From Haloplanus vescus (GTDB lineage Archaea > Halobacteriota > Halobacteria > Halobacteriales > Haloferacaceae): a stretch of 64,000 bases of DNA. The stretch covers positions 62,001-126,000 of the forward strand of contig NZ_FNQT01000003.1 of assembly GCF_900107665.1 (NCBI RefSeq), in the 5' to 3' direction. This document shows positions 2,530 through 47,393 of the stretch, in pieces. How positions within the stretch are numbered: the stretch's first letter is position 1; the number at the start of each line of letters is the position of its first letter. The translations under genes and the position numbers were made by a program. Under the pieces are notes generated by a model. It was not told the DNA's origin. It made no database searches and was given only the letters and a program-made list of their open reading frames with translations.

Positions 2530-2761
2530 AGCAACTACCCCTACGACAGCCGGCCCTATAATCCCCATAGTGACGGCAGAGGCGGCCAACCCTCGCCCGA
2601 ACCAGACAATATTGCCACTACTGTCGGAGATGTGTCGTCGCTGGCGGCGACTTCTCCGGCCGCTCCGATGCCAGATGGCGAATATCCGGCAAATATTGTC
2701 CCCGGATGAGACGGCGGGGCGAAACGCCGTCACTAAAGCCCGCGCAGTCGTATCCACGCGC
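2530..2761. promoter_or_regulatory. Divergent tssA/tssB promoter region with two GACAATATT-like boxes
   Basis: The 232-nt spacer between the two sulfurtransferase genes holds the tssA TATA element (2556-2561, minus strand) and two AT-rich elements that stand out in GC-rich DNA: GACAATATTGCCAC at 2605-2618 and GGCAAATATTGTC at 2688-2700. The second carries the core CAAATATTG, which recurs in GACAAATATTGCCAC at 35326-35340, upstream of the nitrite/sulfite reductase. This suggests a shared regulator; none has been identified. Confidence 0.5.
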
Positions 2762-3544
2762 ATGACTGAGGACATCGTCGTATCTGTCGATTGGCTCGCG
2801 GCCCACTTAGACGAGGTGCGCGTCGTCGACGTGCGCGACGCGTGGGAGTTCGACGGCATCGGACACGTGCCGGGGGCGGTTAACGTCCCCTTCGACCGCT
2901 TCCGAAGCAGCGAGGGCGATGCGGGGATGCTGCCCGGCGCCGAGCGCTGGAAGACGCTGATGGAGGAGGCGGGTATCGACTCTGACGACCGACTCGTCGC
3001 GTACGATGACGAACACGGCGTGTTCGCCGCCCGATTCCTCGTCACCGCGATGCTGTACGGCCACCGCGATGTGCACCTGCTCGACGGCGACTTCAGCGCG
3101 TGGAACCGAGGTCACGAAACGACGAGCGACGCGCCGTCAACGCCGTCGGCCACCTACGACGTTCGAGAGCCGGAGGCGTCGCCGCTGGTGGACTTCGAGG
3201 ACGTGGAAGCGGCCCTCGACACCGATGCCACCATCGTCGATACCCGCGAACCCGAGGAGTACGCTGAAGGACACCTACCGGGCGCCGTCCAACTCGACTG
3301 GCGCGAACTCGTCGACAGCGAGACTCGGGGCCTGAAACCCGACGCCGAACTCGAATCGATTCTCACCGAGCGCGGAATCACGCCCGACAGACGGGTCATC
3401 CTCTACTGCAACACCGCCCGCCGCATCAGTCACACGTACGTCGTCCTCAAGCACCTTGGCTACGAGCGGGTCGACTTCTACGAGGGGAGTCTCACGGAGT
3501 GGCGCGAGCGAGGCGGTCCACTGGAAACCGAGGCAGACGCGTAG
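2762..3544 (+). CDS. tssB: Second thiosulfate sulfurtransferase (rhodanese)
   Basis: A 260-residue two-domain rhodanese, paralogous to the divergent tssA. DVRDAWEFDGIGHVPGAVN marks the first domain; the second has DTREPEEYAEGHLPGAVQLDW and the catalytic loop YCNTARRISH, with the persulfide cysteine near residue 222. The ATG at 2762 starts the recognisable MTEDIVVSVDWLAAHL sequence; the longer frame from 2570 runs through the promoter region and is rejected. The two active loops differ (CRIGERSS versus CNTARRIS), so the enzymes may prefer different donors or acceptors. Confidence 0.92.
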   Translation: MTEDIVVSVDWLAAHLDEVRVVDVRDAWEFDGIGHVPGAVNVPFDRFRSSEGDAGMLPGAERWKTLMEEAGIDSDDRLVAYDDEHGVFAARFLVTAMLYGHRDVHLLDGDFSAWNRGHETTSDAPSTPSATYDVREPEASPLVDFEDVEAALDTDATIVDTREPEEYAEGHLPGAVQLDWRELVDSETRGLKPDAELESILTERGITPDRRVILYCNTARRISHTYVVLKHLGYERVDFYEGSLTEWRERGGPLETEADA

Positions 3545-34748: not shown

Positions 34749-34974
34749 CGATATTCCATACGTGTCTCCCCCGTATAAGGCCGTCTTCGCACGTAATCAC
34801 TACCCGTTCTCCCGCATGGAGGCGCTCCTTTCCGGTATCCGTGACGGGGGAGATTCGGGTGAATCGGTCGCAGTCTGTCGATTCGTTCGCTCTCGGTCCC
34901 GAAACCGCGTCTGACGACCGGCAAACACGACGCGTGTCGACGGCCTTACCGACCCTGGCCCCTTAGCATGCGAC

Positions 34975-35310
34975 ATGACGACCTCGGTTCACCAGCTCGA
35001 CGACGGCGCCTGGGTCAGCGTCAACGACTCCCGCGAAGTGAACGTGAGCGACCTCTGGCGGCTCGCACGCCACGATTTCTGCCGTTGCCGACTCGCCGAC
35101 TTCCTCGTCGAGGGCTTCGTCGAAGTCGCGCCCGACGGCGCCGACGTCGAGGCGCGGGTCGCCGGGCGGTGCATCCAGTGCGGTGCGAGCGGCGTCACCG
35201 ACTGGCTGACGCTCGGCCGCGTCGATCCGGAGACCGACGAGTTCCGGCCTGTCGTCCCCGAGAGCGTTCACGTCCCCGGTCGACGCTCCCGTCTGGCGAC
35301 GCCGCCCTGA
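34975..35310 (+). CDS. Small cysteine-bearing haloarchaeal protein, possible metal site
   Basis: A 111-residue soluble protein (MTTSVHQLDDGAWVSVNDS) with a CRC motif near residue 36-38 and CIQCG near 66-70, which together could bind zinc or an Fe-S centre. The spacing is irregular, so this is only suggestive. The C-terminal third is polar. It lies 99 nt upstream of the reductase gene on the same strand, separated by that gene's own promoter. Confidence 0.65.
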   Translation: MTTSVHQLDDGAWVSVNDSREVNVSDLWRLARHDFCRCRLADFLVEGFVEVAPDGADVEARVAGRCIQCGASGVTDWLTLGRVDPETDEFRPVVPESVHVPGRRSRLATPP

Positions 35311-35325
35311 CGGCTCGTACATAGC

Positions 35326-35408
35326 GACAAATATTGCCACCTATCCGGAGAGCCGGGGAAGGTTGACGAGGTGCCGGACCGTATATGTGCAGGCCTGCAC
35401 TAGCTAGT
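35326..35408 (+). promoter_or_regulatory. Reductase promoter with stacked palindromes and GACAAATATTGCC box
   Basis: From left to right: the AT-rich box GACAAATATTGCCAC (35326-35340), a TATA element GTATATG (35381-35387) centred 26 nt before the reductase ATG, a perfect 14-bp palindrome GTGCAGGCCTGCAC (35387-35400) overlapping the TATA edge, and a second palindrome ACTAGCTAGT (35399-35408) touching the start codon. This predicts a leaderless mRNA and a repressor that blocks TBP/TFB or polymerase entry. Confidence 0.65.
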
Positions 35409-35409
35409 T

Positions 35410-37188
35410 ATGCCGTCTAAGGTCGAGCGCTGGAAAGACGAAGCCTACGGGATGGAGGTACGTGACCACCTCCTCCGATTCGCCGAGGAAGGCTGGGACG
35501 CCATCCCCGAGGACGAACACGACGCCTGGTTCGAGCGGTTCAAATGGTGGGGACTGTACCACCAGCGGAAGGGTCAGGAGAGCTACTTCATGATGCGCAT
35601 CGGGACGCCGATGGGCCGCATGACCCCCGAACAGCTTCGAACCGTGGGCGAAGTCGCGAAGAAATACGCCACCGGCCCCGTCGACAACCCCGAGTTCGGC
35701 GAGGCGTACGCCGACTTCACCACTCGCCAGTCGATTCAGCTCCACTGGATCAAAGTCGAGGACATCGCCGACATCTGGGAGGAACTCGAATCGGTCGGCC
35801 TCTCCACGATGCAGGCGTGTGGTGACTCGTGGCGCAACATCGTCGGCTCGCCCGTCGCCGGGCGCGACGCCGACGAACTCATCGACGTCTGGCCCATCGT
35901 CCAGGAACTCCACGAGACGTTCAAGGGCAACGACCTCTACGCCAACCTGCCCCGGAAGTGGAAGGTCGCCATGACCGGCGACCGCCGCGGCTCCGGACAG
36001 GGTGACATCAACGACCTCGCCTTCGAGCCTGCGACCAAGGAAATCGACGGCGAGGAAGTCGTCGGCTTCAACGTCCACGTCGGCGGCGGCCTCGCCCGCA
36101 AAGAGCCGCGTTTCGCTCGCGATATCGACGTCTTCTGCCGTCCCGAGAACGCCGCCGACATTGCTGGCGGTCTCTCTGCACTCTTCCGTGACTACGGTGA
36201 CCGCGAAGACCGCTTCAACGCCCGCATCAAGTTCCTCGTCGACGAGTGGGGTCCCGAGAAGCTCCGCTCGGTCCTGCAGGAGGAGTACGTGGACTACGAA
36301 CTCCCCACCGCGGGCGAGGACCTGCGCGACGAGTACGACTACAACGCCGGCCGCTCGGACGCCCCCGGCGACTACGTGGGCGTCCACGACCAGAGCGACG
36401 GCCAGAACTTCGTCGGTCTCTCCGTCCTCGTCGGGCGCATGGGCGCCGACGACGTCATCGAACTCGCCGACCTTGCCGACGAGTACGGCTCCGAGATGAT
36501 CGGTCTGACCCAGCGTCAGAACGTCATTGTCGGCGACATCGCCGACGAGGACCTGGACAATTTCCTCGGCGAGGACCTCCTCGACGACTACTCGCCCGAC
36601 CCGCACCCGTTCATGCGCGGCTCTATCGCCTGTACGGGCACCGAGTACTGCTCGCTCTCTATCGTCGAGACGAAAAATCGGATGGTTCGCTACGGGCGCT
36701 GGCTCCGAGACAACGTGCCCGTCCCCGAGGGCGTCAACGATTTCCACATCCACCTCTCGGGCTGTACCGCCTCGTGTGCCCAGCCCCAGATTGCCGACAT
36801 CAGCCTGCGCGGCATGAAGACGCGCAAGGACGGCGACGCAGTCGAGGCGTTCGACGTCGGCCTCGGCGGTGGCCTCGGCGAGAACCCGCAGTTCGCCGAC
36901 TGGGTGAAGATGCGCATCCCGGCCGACGAGATTCCGGGCTATATCGCCAACCTGCTCGAAACCTACGAGGCAGAGCGTGAGAGTCCCGAGGAGTCCTTCC
37001 GTGACTTCGTCGCCGCTCGCGACGAGGACGAACTCGCGGCCCTCGCCGACGGCGAGGAGACGAGCTACGAGGACCCGTACCTCGGCAACACGAAGATGAC
37101 GTGGTACCCCTACGCCGAGGACACGTCGATGGACGCCTCCCCCGCCCCGACGGACGGGACGGGCGAATCCCTCCCCTCGGACGACTAA
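35410..37188 (+). CDS. nirA: Ferredoxin-dependent nitrite (or sulfite) reductase
   Basis: A 592-residue siroheme/[4Fe-4S] reductase that adds six electrons to nitrite (giving ammonia) or sulfite (giving sulfide). It has two nitrite/sulfite reductase half-domain pairs and the cluster motifs CTGTEYC (near 408-414) and SGCTASCAQ (near 452-456). NLPRKWKVAMTGD and INDLAFEPA are closer to plant/cyanobacterial nitrite reductases than to sulfite reductases, so nitrite is favoured. No nitrate reductase or transporter adjoins it. It heads a siroheme gene cluster. Confidence 0.9.
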   Translation: MPSKVERWKDEAYGMEVRDHLLRFAEEGWDAIPEDEHDAWFERFKWWGLYHQRKGQESYFMMRIGTPMGRMTPEQLRTVGEVAKKYATGPVDNPEFGEAYADFTTRQSIQLHWIKVEDIADIWEELESVGLSTMQACGDSWRNIVGSPVAGRDADELIDVWPIVQELHETFKGNDLYANLPRKWKVAMTGDRRGSGQGDINDLAFEPATKEIDGEEVVGFNVHVGGGLARKEPRFARDIDVFCRPENAADIAGGLSALFRDYGDREDRFNARIKFLVDEWGPEKLRSVLQEEYVDYELPTAGEDLRDEYDYNAGRSDAPGDYVGVHDQSDGQNFVGLSVLVGRMGADDVIELADLADEYGSEMIGLTQRQNVIVGDIADEDLDNFLGEDLLDDYSPDPHPFMRGSIACTGTEYCSLSIVETKNRMVRYGRWLRDNVPVPEGVNDFHIHLSGCTASCAQPQIADISLRGMKTRKDGDAVEAFDVGLGGGLGENPQFADWVKMRIPADEIPGYIANLLETYEAERESPEESFRDFVAARDEDELAALADGEETSYEDPYLGNTKMTWYPYAEDTSMDASPAPTDGTGESLPSDD

Positions 37189-37189
37189 C

Positions 37190-37471
37190 ATGGCCGACCG
37201 CGTGATGAAGGTCAACGCCTTCACGACGTTCGACCTCCTCGACGCCAGCGTCGAGGGGCACGGCTTCGAGGAGGAGGCCTTCGCCACGCTCAACGTGCGC
37301 ACGGCCCGCGAAGACCCCGAGGAGATTACCCTCGAACTCGAACTCGACAACACCCAACTCGAGAACGTGCCGGCCCACGCCGACCGCGTGACGCTCTCGG
37401 CCGACGAGGCGCGCACCTTCGCGACCGAACTACAGAAGGCCGCAGAGCGCGTAGACGACACCGACCAATGA
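37190..37471 (+). CDS. DUF6360 family protein
   Basis: A 93-residue acidic protein (MADRVMKVNAFTTFDLLDAS) of the haloarchaeal DUF6360 family, with the conserved opening and a final helix LSADEARTFATELQKAAERV. It starts 1 nt after the reductase stop and overlaps the CbiX gene by 4 nt (ATGA). That tight packing between a siroheme enzyme and a siroheme-synthesis gene suggests it helps assemble or feed the reductase. No biochemical role is known to me. Confidence 0.85.
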   Translation: MADRVMKVNAFTTFDLLDASVEGHGFEEEAFATLNVRTAREDPEEITLELELDNTQLENVPAHADRVTLSADEARTFATELQKAAERVDDTDQ

Positions 37472-38970
37472 CCGATCAGGCGCTGATCGTCGCGGCGCAC
37501 GGCTCCCACCGCAACCCCGATTCGGCGACGCCGACGTACGCCCACGTCGATGCCATCCGGGAACGGGGCTGTTTTTCACAAGTTCGCGAAGCGTTCTGGA
37601 AGGAGGCACCCGCGTTCCGGGACGTGCTCCGCACTGTCGACGCCGACGAAACCTACATCGTCCCGCTGTTCGTGAGCGAGGGCTACTTCGTCGACCAGGT
37701 GCTCCCCCGGGAGTTCGCCCTCGGCATCACCGACGCCGCCGGCACCGACCACGAGTCCGAAATCATCTACACCGACCCCGTCGGAACCCACCCGGAGATG
37801 ACCGACGTGGTCGCGGCGCGCGCCCGTCGCTATCTCGACGACGACGTGGACGAGTCCGAGACGGCACTCGCCGTCATCGGCCACGGCACCGAGCGCAACC
37901 CTAACAGCGCCGACGCCATCTACAATCACGTCGACGCGCTCCGCGAGACGACTGACTTCGCGGAGGTCGACGCGCTCTTCATGGACGAAGCGCCGTACGT
38001 CGACGACGTACTGGATGTCTTCGACGCCGACGACATCGCCGTCGTCCCCCTCTTCATCGCCGACGGTTTTCACACCCAAGACGAGATTCCGGAACTCCTC
38101 GGCATCACCGACGACCCCCGCTCCGGCTACCCCGTCCCCGGCGAGGTGTCCGGGCGGCGAATCTGGTACACCTCGGCGGTGGGCACCGACCCCCTCATGC
38201 CCGAGGTACTCCTCGAACGCGCCGCCGATGCCGGGGCGGATATCGACCACACCGTCGAGACGGAGACGCCCGTTCGCCCCGACGCCGGTGAGGCGTTCCG
38301 CTCGTGGGTCGACGACGCGCCGACTCGGGCGTGGGGCGACCTCTCGATTCGCCACACGGACGCGGGCTACGAGCTCCGACACCGCACCGACCGCGACGCC
38401 GGACGCGCGGCACTCGAACGGCGCGCCCCCGACGGCTTCCGCGAGTTCGTCCGCACCGACGACGACGGCCGATACCGACCCTTCGCGGGCGAGCAATCGC
38501 TCCCGACCGGGTGGGTGCTCACCGACCTCGACGCGTCCGGTCTCCTGCGCGCCGTATCGACCGTCTACCCGGCCGCCGTCGAGACGTGGCACGACGACCC
38601 CGAGGCCGTCCCCTACCGCGAGACGGCGGCCCGTCAGACCGGCATCTACGAGCGAGTCTCGAACCTCTCTCGCGAGGAACTGGTCGACGTGACGACTGCG
38701 GTGTGTGGAAACTGCGCCAAGCGCCGCGACTGGGACGAGTCCGACGACGACTCGCTCCCCGTCGAACGCGGCGAGGGCGAGCTCCCCTGTCGCGAACCGT
38801 GTTCGTTCCTCGTGGCCGCGGCCCGCGAAGTCCTCGTGGACGAACCCACAGACGAACAGGCTCCCGACCACCCCGATTCCGACGTGCCGCCGGGCGACCT
38901 GACCGACCCGGCCAACCGCTATCGGGTCCGCTACCGGCAGGCACGCGACGCTCCCGAACCAACCCACTGA
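37468..38970 (+). CDS. cbiX: CbiX sirohydrochlorin chelatase fused to DR2241 domain
   Basis: A 500-residue protein. Two CbiX/SirB-type halves (about 1-125 and 128-250) have metal-binding IVAAHGSHRNP, VVPLFVSEGYFVDQV, GHGTERNP and VPLFIADGFHT; they insert Fe2+ (siroheme) or Co2+ into sirohydrochlorin. The C-terminal half (about 260-490) is DR2241-like with cysteines in CGNCAKR and CREPCSF, the layout of an Fe-S site. The DR2241 role is not established. The gene overlaps DUF6360 upstream and the SUMT gene downstream (TGATG), so all are co-translated. Confidence 0.9.
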   Translation: MTDQALIVAAHGSHRNPDSATPTYAHVDAIRERGCFSQVREAFWKEAPAFRDVLRTVDADETYIVPLFVSEGYFVDQVLPREFALGITDAAGTDHESEIIYTDPVGTHPEMTDVVAARARRYLDDDVDESETALAVIGHGTERNPNSADAIYNHVDALRETTDFAEVDALFMDEAPYVDDVLDVFDADDIAVVPLFIADGFHTQDEIPELLGITDDPRSGYPVPGEVSGRRIWYTSAVGTDPLMPEVLLERAADAGADIDHTVETETPVRPDAGEAFRSWVDDAPTRAWGDLSIRHTDAGYELRHRTDRDAGRAALERRAPDGFREFVRTDDDGRYRPFAGEQSLPTGWVLTDLDASGLLRAVSTVYPAAVETWHDDPEAVPYRETAARQTGIYERVSNLSREELVDVTTAVCGNCAKRRDWDESDDDSLPVERGEGELPCREPCSFLVAAAREVLVDEPTDEQAPDHPDSDVPPGDLTDPANRYRVRYRQARDAPEPTH

Positions 38971-45126: not shown

Positions 45127-47393
45127 TCGAAATCACCCAGACTGGCCTGCTGGTCGCTCGCCGACGCCGCTGGCGCGTCGGCGTCGGTCGCCTCGTCCGC
45201 CTCGTCGTCGGGCGCAACGCCCCCGTCCGCGTCCACGTCGTCCATCGACGGGTCGCGCCGCCCCGCGTTTTCGAGGATTCGCTCGGCCGTCCGCTCGCGC
45301 CCCCGGAGCGCCCCGAGGACGGTCGACTTTTCTGCCTCTCGGAGGTCCGCGCGGCTCTCCACGCCTGCTTCGAACAGCCGACGAGCGCGCTTTCGGCCGA
45401 TACCGCGAACCCCCGCCAAGTCGAGGAGTTCGTCGCGGACGCCGTACTCGACGCGCTTTTTCGCCTCGCGGACGGCGACCACGCAATCTAGGTCAAGGTC
45501 GGTCGCCAGACGCTCCGCCGCGCCGAGCAACCACTCCGCGGTGTCGACTTTCCCCCGGATGTCGCCGGGACCGACGCCGTAGCGGTCGGTGAGGCGGTCC
45601 TCGTCCACCTCGCGCGTCCAGTCTTCGAGCAACTTCGCCGTCTTCAGCGCCGAGAGCCACTCCTCGAAGCGCACGTCCTCGAACTCGGAGGGGACACGAC
45701 CGAGAAACTCCGTCTCGCGTTCGTAACAGAGTTCGGTGTACGTCTCGCGGTCCCCCGACTTCAGGTAGAGTTCGTACATGTCCGGGGTGCGGCAGACGAG
45801 GTGATAGAGGCCGAGGGGGGTTGGGTCGTCGGCGTCCTGGAGGCCGTCGACGATTTCCGCCGCGCTCATCGGGTCGAGGTAGAGTCGCGAGACGGTGTGA
45901 CCGAGGTTGGTTGCCGTGATGGTCTCGCCATCTCGCTCCACGAAGTCGTTGGCGACGAGATACTCGATGGTCGAATCGACGACCGAGGCCAGCTGCCCCG
46001 AGTCGTCGCTCGCTTGCGTCGCGTACAGCGTCCGGTCGAGGAATTCGAGCAAGCCCTCGCGGGTGCGGGCGAACCCGGAGGCGACCGTCGCGAGCAGGTG
46101 GGTCCGCATCGCGGGTTCGCGCGCCAGCTTCGAGGAGACCGGCTCCGGGTCGGCCTCGACGTAGCGGTCGAACAGTTCGTCCATCGTGTCGTGGTCGTCC
46201 GCGAGGAGGACGGCCTCGCCGTACGGGTCGAGGCCGGGACGCCCCGCGCGCCCGAACATCTGGTGGACTTCGAGCGTGTCGAGCGGTTTCATCCCCCCGA
46301 ACTCGCCGTCGTAGCGCCGCCAGTCGCGGACGATGACCCGTCGGCTCGGCGTGTTGACGCCGGCGGCGAGCGTCGGCGTCGCGCAGATGGCCTTCAACAG
46401 GCGGTCGCGGAACGCGTCCTCGACGAGCGAACGGTGGTCGGCGGCGAGGCCGGCGTGGTGGAACGCGGCCCCCTTTCGTACGACTGCGGCGAGGTCGTCG
46501 CTCGTCTCGGTGTCGGAGACGGCCGCCACCTCGTCGGCGATGTCCGCGAGTTCGGCGCGTTCGTCGTCGGTCAGGTGCGCCTCCGTCACGTCGCTCAGTC
46601 GGCGCGCCGCGGCCTCGGCGTTCCGCCGCGAGTTGACGAACACGAGCGAGGAGCCGTCTTCGTCGAGGGTGTCGTCCACGAGCGCCGCGGTCGGTCGCTC
46701 GCCTCGCCCCACCGGCACCTCGCGTTGGCTGTCGTCGTCGAAGGTGATGGCGTCGCCGTAGTGGACGCCGGTCCGGAGGTCGACCGGGCGCCAGTCCGAT
46801 TTCACCAACTCGGCGTCCAGCCAGTCGGCCACCTCGTCGGCGTTGTCGACGGTGGCCGAGAGCGCGACCACCTGCAGGTCGGCGGCGATGCGCCGGAGTT
46901 TCGCGAGCGTCACCTCCAGCGTCGGGCCGCGGTTCGGGTCGTCGACGAGGTGGACTTCGTCGGCGACGACACAGGTGAGGTCCTCTATCCACGGCGCGCC
47001 GTTGCGAACCAGCGAGTCCACCTTCTCGCTGGTCGCGACGACGATGTCGCGGGACGCCAGCCACTCCTCGCTCGACTCGTAGTTGCCGGTGGAGATGCCC
47101 ACGTCGATGCCGAACTCGTTCCAGCGCTCGAATTCGGCCTTCTTCTCGCTGGCGAGGGCGCGAAGTGGGACGACGTAGAGCGCCTTGCCGCCGCGTTCGA
47201 CGCTCGACAGCATGGCGAGTTCCGAAATCAGCGTCTTGCCGCTGGCGGTCGGCACGCTGGCGACGAGGCTCTCGCCCTCGGTGACGCCGGCGTCGACCGC
47301 TTCGGCCTGTGGCGGATAGAGCGCCTCGATGCCCGACTCGCGGAGGAAGTCGGGGACGCCCGCCGGCAGGCCGGGGATGTCCACGGGGTTCAT
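45123..47393 (-). CDS. hel308: ATP-dependent DNA helicase Hel308
   Basis: A 756-residue Ski2-like 3'-5' helicase that works at stalled forks. It has the Q motif YPPQAEA, Walker A ASGKT, DEVH box, motif III LSATV and motif [12 protein letters not shown], then a winged helix, ratchet domain and the C-terminal helix-hairpin-helix [20 protein letters not shown]. The acidic tail ends QASLGDF, a PIP-box-like sequence for PCNA binding. The start ATG 47393 ([12 protein letters not shown]) fits; the longer frame is promoter. It is co-translated with cgi121 (4-nt overlap). Confidence 0.96.

Follow-up and report, generated by a model that had tools for sequence, protein, structure and literature searches.

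Several described regulators have features in common with the element analysed here. SurR of the Thermococcales responds to sulfur and has an operator of the form GTT-N3-AAC, while the NrpR operator of methanogens reads GGAA-N6-TTCC. In bacterial regulons of the CysB/CymR type, sulfite reductase is co-regulated with other sulfur genes, and repressors occur among the bacterial sulfur regulators. The Lrp/AsnC activator Ptr2 of Methanocaldococcus reportedly has sites of the form GGACGA-N3-TCGTCC. Archaeal activators of the Lrp type occupy a degenerate palindromic dimer site just upstream of BRE/TATA at a constrained distance, with one or more further sites two to three turns upstream (PMC2995911). 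OxsR of Haloferax volcanii has a CG-rich repeat as its motif, positioned 5' of BRE/TATA at activated genes (PMC9426492). We found no sulfur-assimilation regulator of haloarchaea described in the open literature.

The DNA studied here is a window of 64,000 nucleotides from Haloplanus vescus (the whole stretch that was analysed), in which an initial annotation had noticed an AT-rich box shared by the promoter of a siroheme reductase gene and the spacer between two divergent sulfurtransferase genes, tssA and tssB, and had proposed a common regulator. We consider it quite likely that a dedicated haloarchaeal transcription factor uses this box as its DNA operator and controls a sulfite reductase together with the two divergent sulfurtransferases, presumably as an activator. 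The box would then be a new and small operator of a known type, with deep conservation among haloarchaea. As at the sites of Ptr2 and Ss-LrpB, we see a degenerate palindrome at a constrained distance upstream of BRE/TATA, but the Ptr2 site differs from it in sequence, and no Lrp gene was seen linked to the box. With SurR the box shares the sulfur link and a short inverted repeat spaced by 3 bp, but when the operators are compared by eye, using the SurR motif as given above, the half-sites are GTT/AAC in the one and CAA/TTG in the other. The NrpR operator resembles the GG-MAA...TTK-CC of the box at first sight, but its spacing differs. OxsR is haloarchaeal and acts 5' of BRE/TATA, as would be expected for the box, but its CG-rich repeat is unlike it. 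Finally, the co-regulation of sulfite reductase recalls the CysB/CymR regulons, but the operator is unrelated and the basal promoter here is archaeal.

In the reductase promoter, the conserved footprint that we call box A (35323-35340, -) contains the quasi-palindrome GACAAATATTGCC (35326-35338). The other two boxes lie between a gene of 288 aa on the tssB side (1663-2529, -) and a gene of 260 aa on the tssA side (2762-3544, +), both encoding two-domain rhodanese/sulfurtransferases; the tssB-side box spans 2601-2618 (-) and the tssA-side box 2685-2702 (-). The three copies first reported, GACAAATATTGCCAC at 35326-35340, GGCAAATATTGTC at 2688-2700 and GACAATATTGCCAC at 2605-2618, were all found at those coordinates, and the 9-mer CAAATATTG, said to be confined to the two regulatory regions, does occur within the window only at 2690 and 35328. 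It never appeared in 100 dinucleotide shuffles of the window, and an exact search of the 2.78-Mb genome for GNCAAATATTGNC returned exactly two matches, both at the reported sites. The core of the third copy, CAATATTG, is present eight times genome-wide, the other copies being mostly in or near unrelated genes. Across the genus, the motif is a degenerate inverted repeat of about 17 bp, roughly CCGGMAA-N3-TTKCCGG, of which GNCAAATATTGNC is one form; the pattern GRCAA(A)TATTGYC of the initial annotation is the AT-rich form of this consensus. On the tssB side, the half-site spacing is one base shorter than the genus consensus at that place (GGCAACATTTTCC-like in other species), and thus the perfect 12-bp palindrome GACAATATTGCC (2605-2616) is a local variant. 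With an 18-bp profile trained on the reductase upstream regions and tss spacers of 12 Haloplanus genomes, each of the 36 training regions gave a match. The three window sites scored 26.5, 24.9 and 22.7, the next best position in the window reached 8.4, and the maxima in ten 64-kb Markov-2 random sequences were 9.5-17.5; in a scan covering 322 kb from Haloplanus, no sites but these three scored at least 17. A common occurrence of the motif, which by the initial annotation would have spoken against a shared regulator, was not observed: besides the two exact genome matches, the off-promoter matches in the 12 Haloplanus genomes were at background.

The idea of a shared regulator also depended on conservation upstream of orthologues, and this was found both within and beyond the genus. 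In all 12 Haloplanus genomes the box stands at a near-constant place upstream of the siroheme reductase gene and at two places in the tssA/tssB spacer. We then extended the scan to 100 bp upstream of the reductase gene in 78 named haloarchaea outside the genus (Haloferax, Haloarcula, Halorientalis, Natronomonas, Halobacterium, Halorhabdus, Halosimplex and others), with control windows further upstream. A profile score of at least 6 was reached at 81% of these loci, the corresponding fractions being 2.4% for dinucleotide shuffles and 6% for control windows, and the median best score was 10.8 as against -5.4 and -3.9, respectively. Among the Haloferax species, H. prahovense, H. massiliensis, H. 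larsenii and H. profundi show a clear box. In the tss spacer, 15 of 18 relatives outside the genus scored at least 10, compared to 1.1% of shuffles. The loci are related by descent, so that these percentages do not represent independent trials, but the box has kept its place while much of the neighbouring non-coding sequence diverged. When these relatives were divided by the presence of a sulfite-type reductase, the spacer box was found in 14/14 genomes with it and 1/4 without (Fisher p 0.005; two of the four genomes are incomplete). The tss-spacer box goes with the reductase: genomes that do not have the reductase mostly do not have this box either. Taken together with the TATA spacing described below, the rarity and conservation of the box support the proposal of a shared regulator well, and from them we infer the common regulator itself.

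The distance of the box to the basal promoter is equally constrained. The reductase gene has the TATA element GTATAT (35381-35386, +), placed by its conservation and by its distance of about 27 bp to the ATG; the minus-strand rhodanese gene has ATTATAG (2557-2563, -) and the plus-strand one the TATA-like ACTAAAG (2732-2738, +). In all three genes about 27-30 bp separate the TATA-like element from the ATG downstream of it, the distance expected for leaderless haloarchaeal genes. The centre of box A precedes TATA by 49 bp in the window and by 47-49 bp in 12/12 Haloplanus genomes, and that of the tssB-side box precedes it by exactly 49 bp, again in 12/12. On the tssA side the distance is about 38 bp in the window and, across the genus, 36-38 bp in eight genomes and 45-53 bp in three, with one genome having no assignable distance. 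The same distance to TATA in two unrelated genes is difficult to account for unless a DNA-binding protein common to both acts on the basal machinery.

The reductase promoter carries a second conserved element, box B (GAGAGCCGGGGAAGGTTGACG; 35348-35369, -), 28 bp downstream of box A. The promoter block GAGnnCCGGGGAnGGTTGACG, at this distance of 28 bp from box A on the gene side, is conserved even more than box A, and the element is unique in the genome allowing up to 3 mismatches. The match of box B to box A is weak; nevertheless, its reverse complement was the best second match to the box A profile at one fixed position in 53/87 promoters, and in 55/87 when the search was limited to the region downstream of box A; for this restricted search, 200 column permutations gave 17 on average and 51 at most. 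This is suggestive of box B being an inverted, weaker second copy of the box A motif. The spacing of 28 bp corresponds to about 2.7 helical turns, compared to the 2 or 3 turns reported at Lrp-type sites.

Binding of a protein to the box, activation, the signal sensed and the identity of the protein are what we infer, and the mechanism could be envisioned as follows. A dimer would recognise the inverted repeat of about 17 bp resembling CCGGMAA-N3-TTKCCGG, and at the reductase promoter it would sit on box A and on the weaker, inverted box B 28 bp nearer the gene, ending just upstream of BRE/TATA. In this upstream position it would most likely recruit basal factors and thereby activate, possibly under a shortage of reduced sulfur or in the presence of sulfite or thiosulfate, and the siroheme-related genes downstream of the sulfite reductase would come under the same control. 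We favour an activator site because the box lies upstream of TATA, as do the sites of the archaeal Lrp-type activators. The opposite sign of control, in which the box would be a repressor operator, occupied in the presence of ample cysteine or sulfide and released on sulfur limitation, seems improbable to us but is the strongest of the competing interpretations. It could draw on the repressors included among the bacterial sulfur regulators and on the two boxes flanking the divergent tss promoters, an arrangement that may allow looping; however, the box centres are 36-53 bp upstream of TATA, overlapping neither TATA nor the start, and in archaea a site that lies upstream of BRE/TATA usually serves activation (PMC2995911).

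The box would tie the reductase functionally to rhodanese-type sulfurtransferases, and two distant haloarchaea (G032 and G026) carry both activities fused, with the rhodanese and the K-x-K reductase making up one ORF of 778-793 aa. In G032, box-like sites are present upstream of the fused gene. The fused ORFs themselves (L072:1492-3873 and L306:1504-3840) are each followed by a gene for an FrhB/FdhB-like 4Fe-4S protein. It is conceivable that the genes behind the box serve detoxification rather than assimilation and that a redox or electrophile-stress regulator, responding to oxidised thiols or reactive sulfur species, binds there. Removal of sulfane sulfur and of sulfite is established biochemistry of the rhodanese and sulfite reductase families, so that these targets would suit such a role as well, and thiol-based regulators do exist in haloarchaea, OxsR being one (PMC9426492). 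We nonetheless regard this as rather unlikely: the published OxsR motif is CG-rich, unlike the box, and the siroheme-related genes downstream of the reductase suit a biosynthetic role. These are a DUF6360 gene (37190-37471) and a gene for a CbiX-type sirohydrochlorin chelatase (37468-38970), both on the plus strand (37190-38970, +), which probably belong to the reductase operon; in several relatives, a tetrapyrrole methylase takes the place of the chelatase. Throughout the family, the reductase gene is immediately preceded by a conserved gene for a small CxxC protein with no Pfam match (34968-35324 in the window).

Whether the reductase acts on sulfite or on nitrite bears directly on the nature of the regulon. 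The protein (592 aa; 35410-37188, +) belongs to the NIR_SIR family, with NIR_SIR and ferredoxin-like half domains (PF01077, 3.8e-46; PF03460, 2.1e-36), and the cysteines of its siroheme/[4Fe-4S] ligand motif CX5C...CX3C (C408/C414 and C452/C456) are invariant in an alignment of five sequences. Its anion pocket has a Lys-x-Lys pair (K183-x-K185), seen as PRKWK in every Haloplanus orthologue for which the motif was retrieved and as PRK-x-K in the rhodanese-fused homologues of G026 and G032. The corresponding pair, Lys460 and Lys462, is among four residues reported as conserved across sulfite reductases (PMC10229431), while wild-type tobacco nitrite reductase (3b0g) has PRKWN at this position, the second residue being Asn. 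The same contig also encodes a paralogue, at position 45651 and 16 kb before the window start, which has PRKFN (K-x-N) and no box; it adjoins a formate/nitrite transporter and a tetrapyrrole methylase, with a cyanate lyase nearby. On the strength of its sequence, the window protein is a probable ferredoxin-type assimilatory sulfite reductase. Of the two options given in the initial annotation, sulfur or nitrogen, the contrast between the K-x-K reductase and its box-less K-x-N paralogue favours sulfur. Sulfite is likewise favoured over nitrite as the putative substrate when the K-x-K residues, the box-less paralogue, the co-occurrence of box and reductase and the rhodanese fusion are considered together. 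The box would also offer independent evidence for a sulfite role in a gene family most closely related, among characterised enzymes, to nitrite reductases.

That the box is instead a nitrogen-control operator, with the reductase being an assimilatory nitrite reductase, is in our view quite unlikely, even though the similarity searches lean in that direction. No NCBIfam equivalog, for sulfite or nitrite, was passed by the reductase: it fell below the cut-offs of the sulfite reductase equivalogs (185 bits vs 457 and 138 vs 731), and the best match, also below its cut-off, was ferredoxin-nitrite reductase (425 vs 594). Among solved structures, too, plant nitrite reductases come out best, and a box-like site occurs upstream of the ammonium transporter gene amt in two genomes, G008 and G001. 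Against this stand the rhodaneses as partner genes, the second reductase, whose nitrite-type K-x-N and adjoining nitrite transporter come without a box, and the nitrogen-gene promoters themselves: amt and nirA of the H. vescus genome (G000) share different elements, ACCTTATA, TAATAAACCGGAC and CATTTGTNAACG...CTTATA. These elements, kept in seven Haloplanus species for amt, are likely a nitrogen-regulon promoter pattern. Moreover, the NrpR gene (PF01995) is absent from 12/12 Haloplanus genomes and was present in 1/40 relatives. The amt/nirA elements are located at L292:1089-1419 and L134:10336-10650 (contig C3 of G000, outside the window). The box-like site upstream of amt, CGGACAATTGTTGCCGGA / GGCAACATTTGTC, lies about 240 bp from the gene at the same place in G008 (L304:3255) and G001 (L303). 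We rejected amt as a fourth target, the box being absent in G000, G009, G004 and G007; its presence in 2/7 Haloplanus genomes hints at a wider or different signal.

The search for the regulator gene among the candidates examined (OxsR, NrpR and P0005) did not find it. OxsR was set aside for its published CG-rich motif, the box being AT-centred, and NrpR for the absence of its gene from the genus. P0005, a 79-aa winged-helix gene, is divergent from the reductase in one relative (G031; L070:1110-1349), with a box and GGCAA/TTGCC half-sites in between. Its homologues are ubiquitous and multi-copy, and upstream of the 30 best-matching loci there was no consistent box outside G031 itself (weak scattered scores), so that P0005 is a local lead only. 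The conserved operator offers a direct handle for finding the regulator, with box A usable as bait. As a broader proposal, to which we give an even chance, a dedicated transcription factor present in a large part of the class Halobacteria would act through paired inverted-repeat sites upstream of TATA on a very small regulon, the sulfite reductase and the tssA/tssB pair, sensing sulfite, sulfane sulfur or sulfur limitation as the haloarchaeal equivalent of CysB or SurR.

That the AT-rich promoter sequences resemble one another by chance can be dismissed almost with certainty: AT-rich stretches are indeed concentrated in the intergenic DNA of haloarchaea, but the zero count in shuffles, the class-wide conservation, the fixed TATA spacing and the background-level matches elsewhere all speak against it. 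The size of the regulon was judged from genome-wide pattern searches and profile scans of selected stretches, an approach that leaves room for weak extra targets. The specific form RRCAANATTKKYC has 29 matches in the 12 Haloplanus genomes (about 40 Mb), 14 of them in reductase or tss promoters; the other 15 compare with 16 in a reversed-pattern control, and those inspected were mostly coding or isolated. The excess is confined to the reductase and tss promoters, and the core regulon therefore seems to be restricted to these genes. With one mismatch allowed, a degenerate 17-bp pattern gave matches at background level only, so that no large regulon can be read from that pattern, and the other genome matches with 0-1 mismatch were mostly in coding DNA or distant from starts. 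The matches inspected did not show the enrichment that had been anticipated in front of other cysteine or sulfate genes, and in the source genome (G000) no further sulfur gene of the regulon was found. Among the pattern matches in this genome, two pairs share the same offset: on contig C4 (201 kb), identical sequence recurs at a distance of 104,006 bp (G000:C4:53822 and C4:157828; L006 and L007), pointing to a large duplication or to a plasmid assembled at double length.
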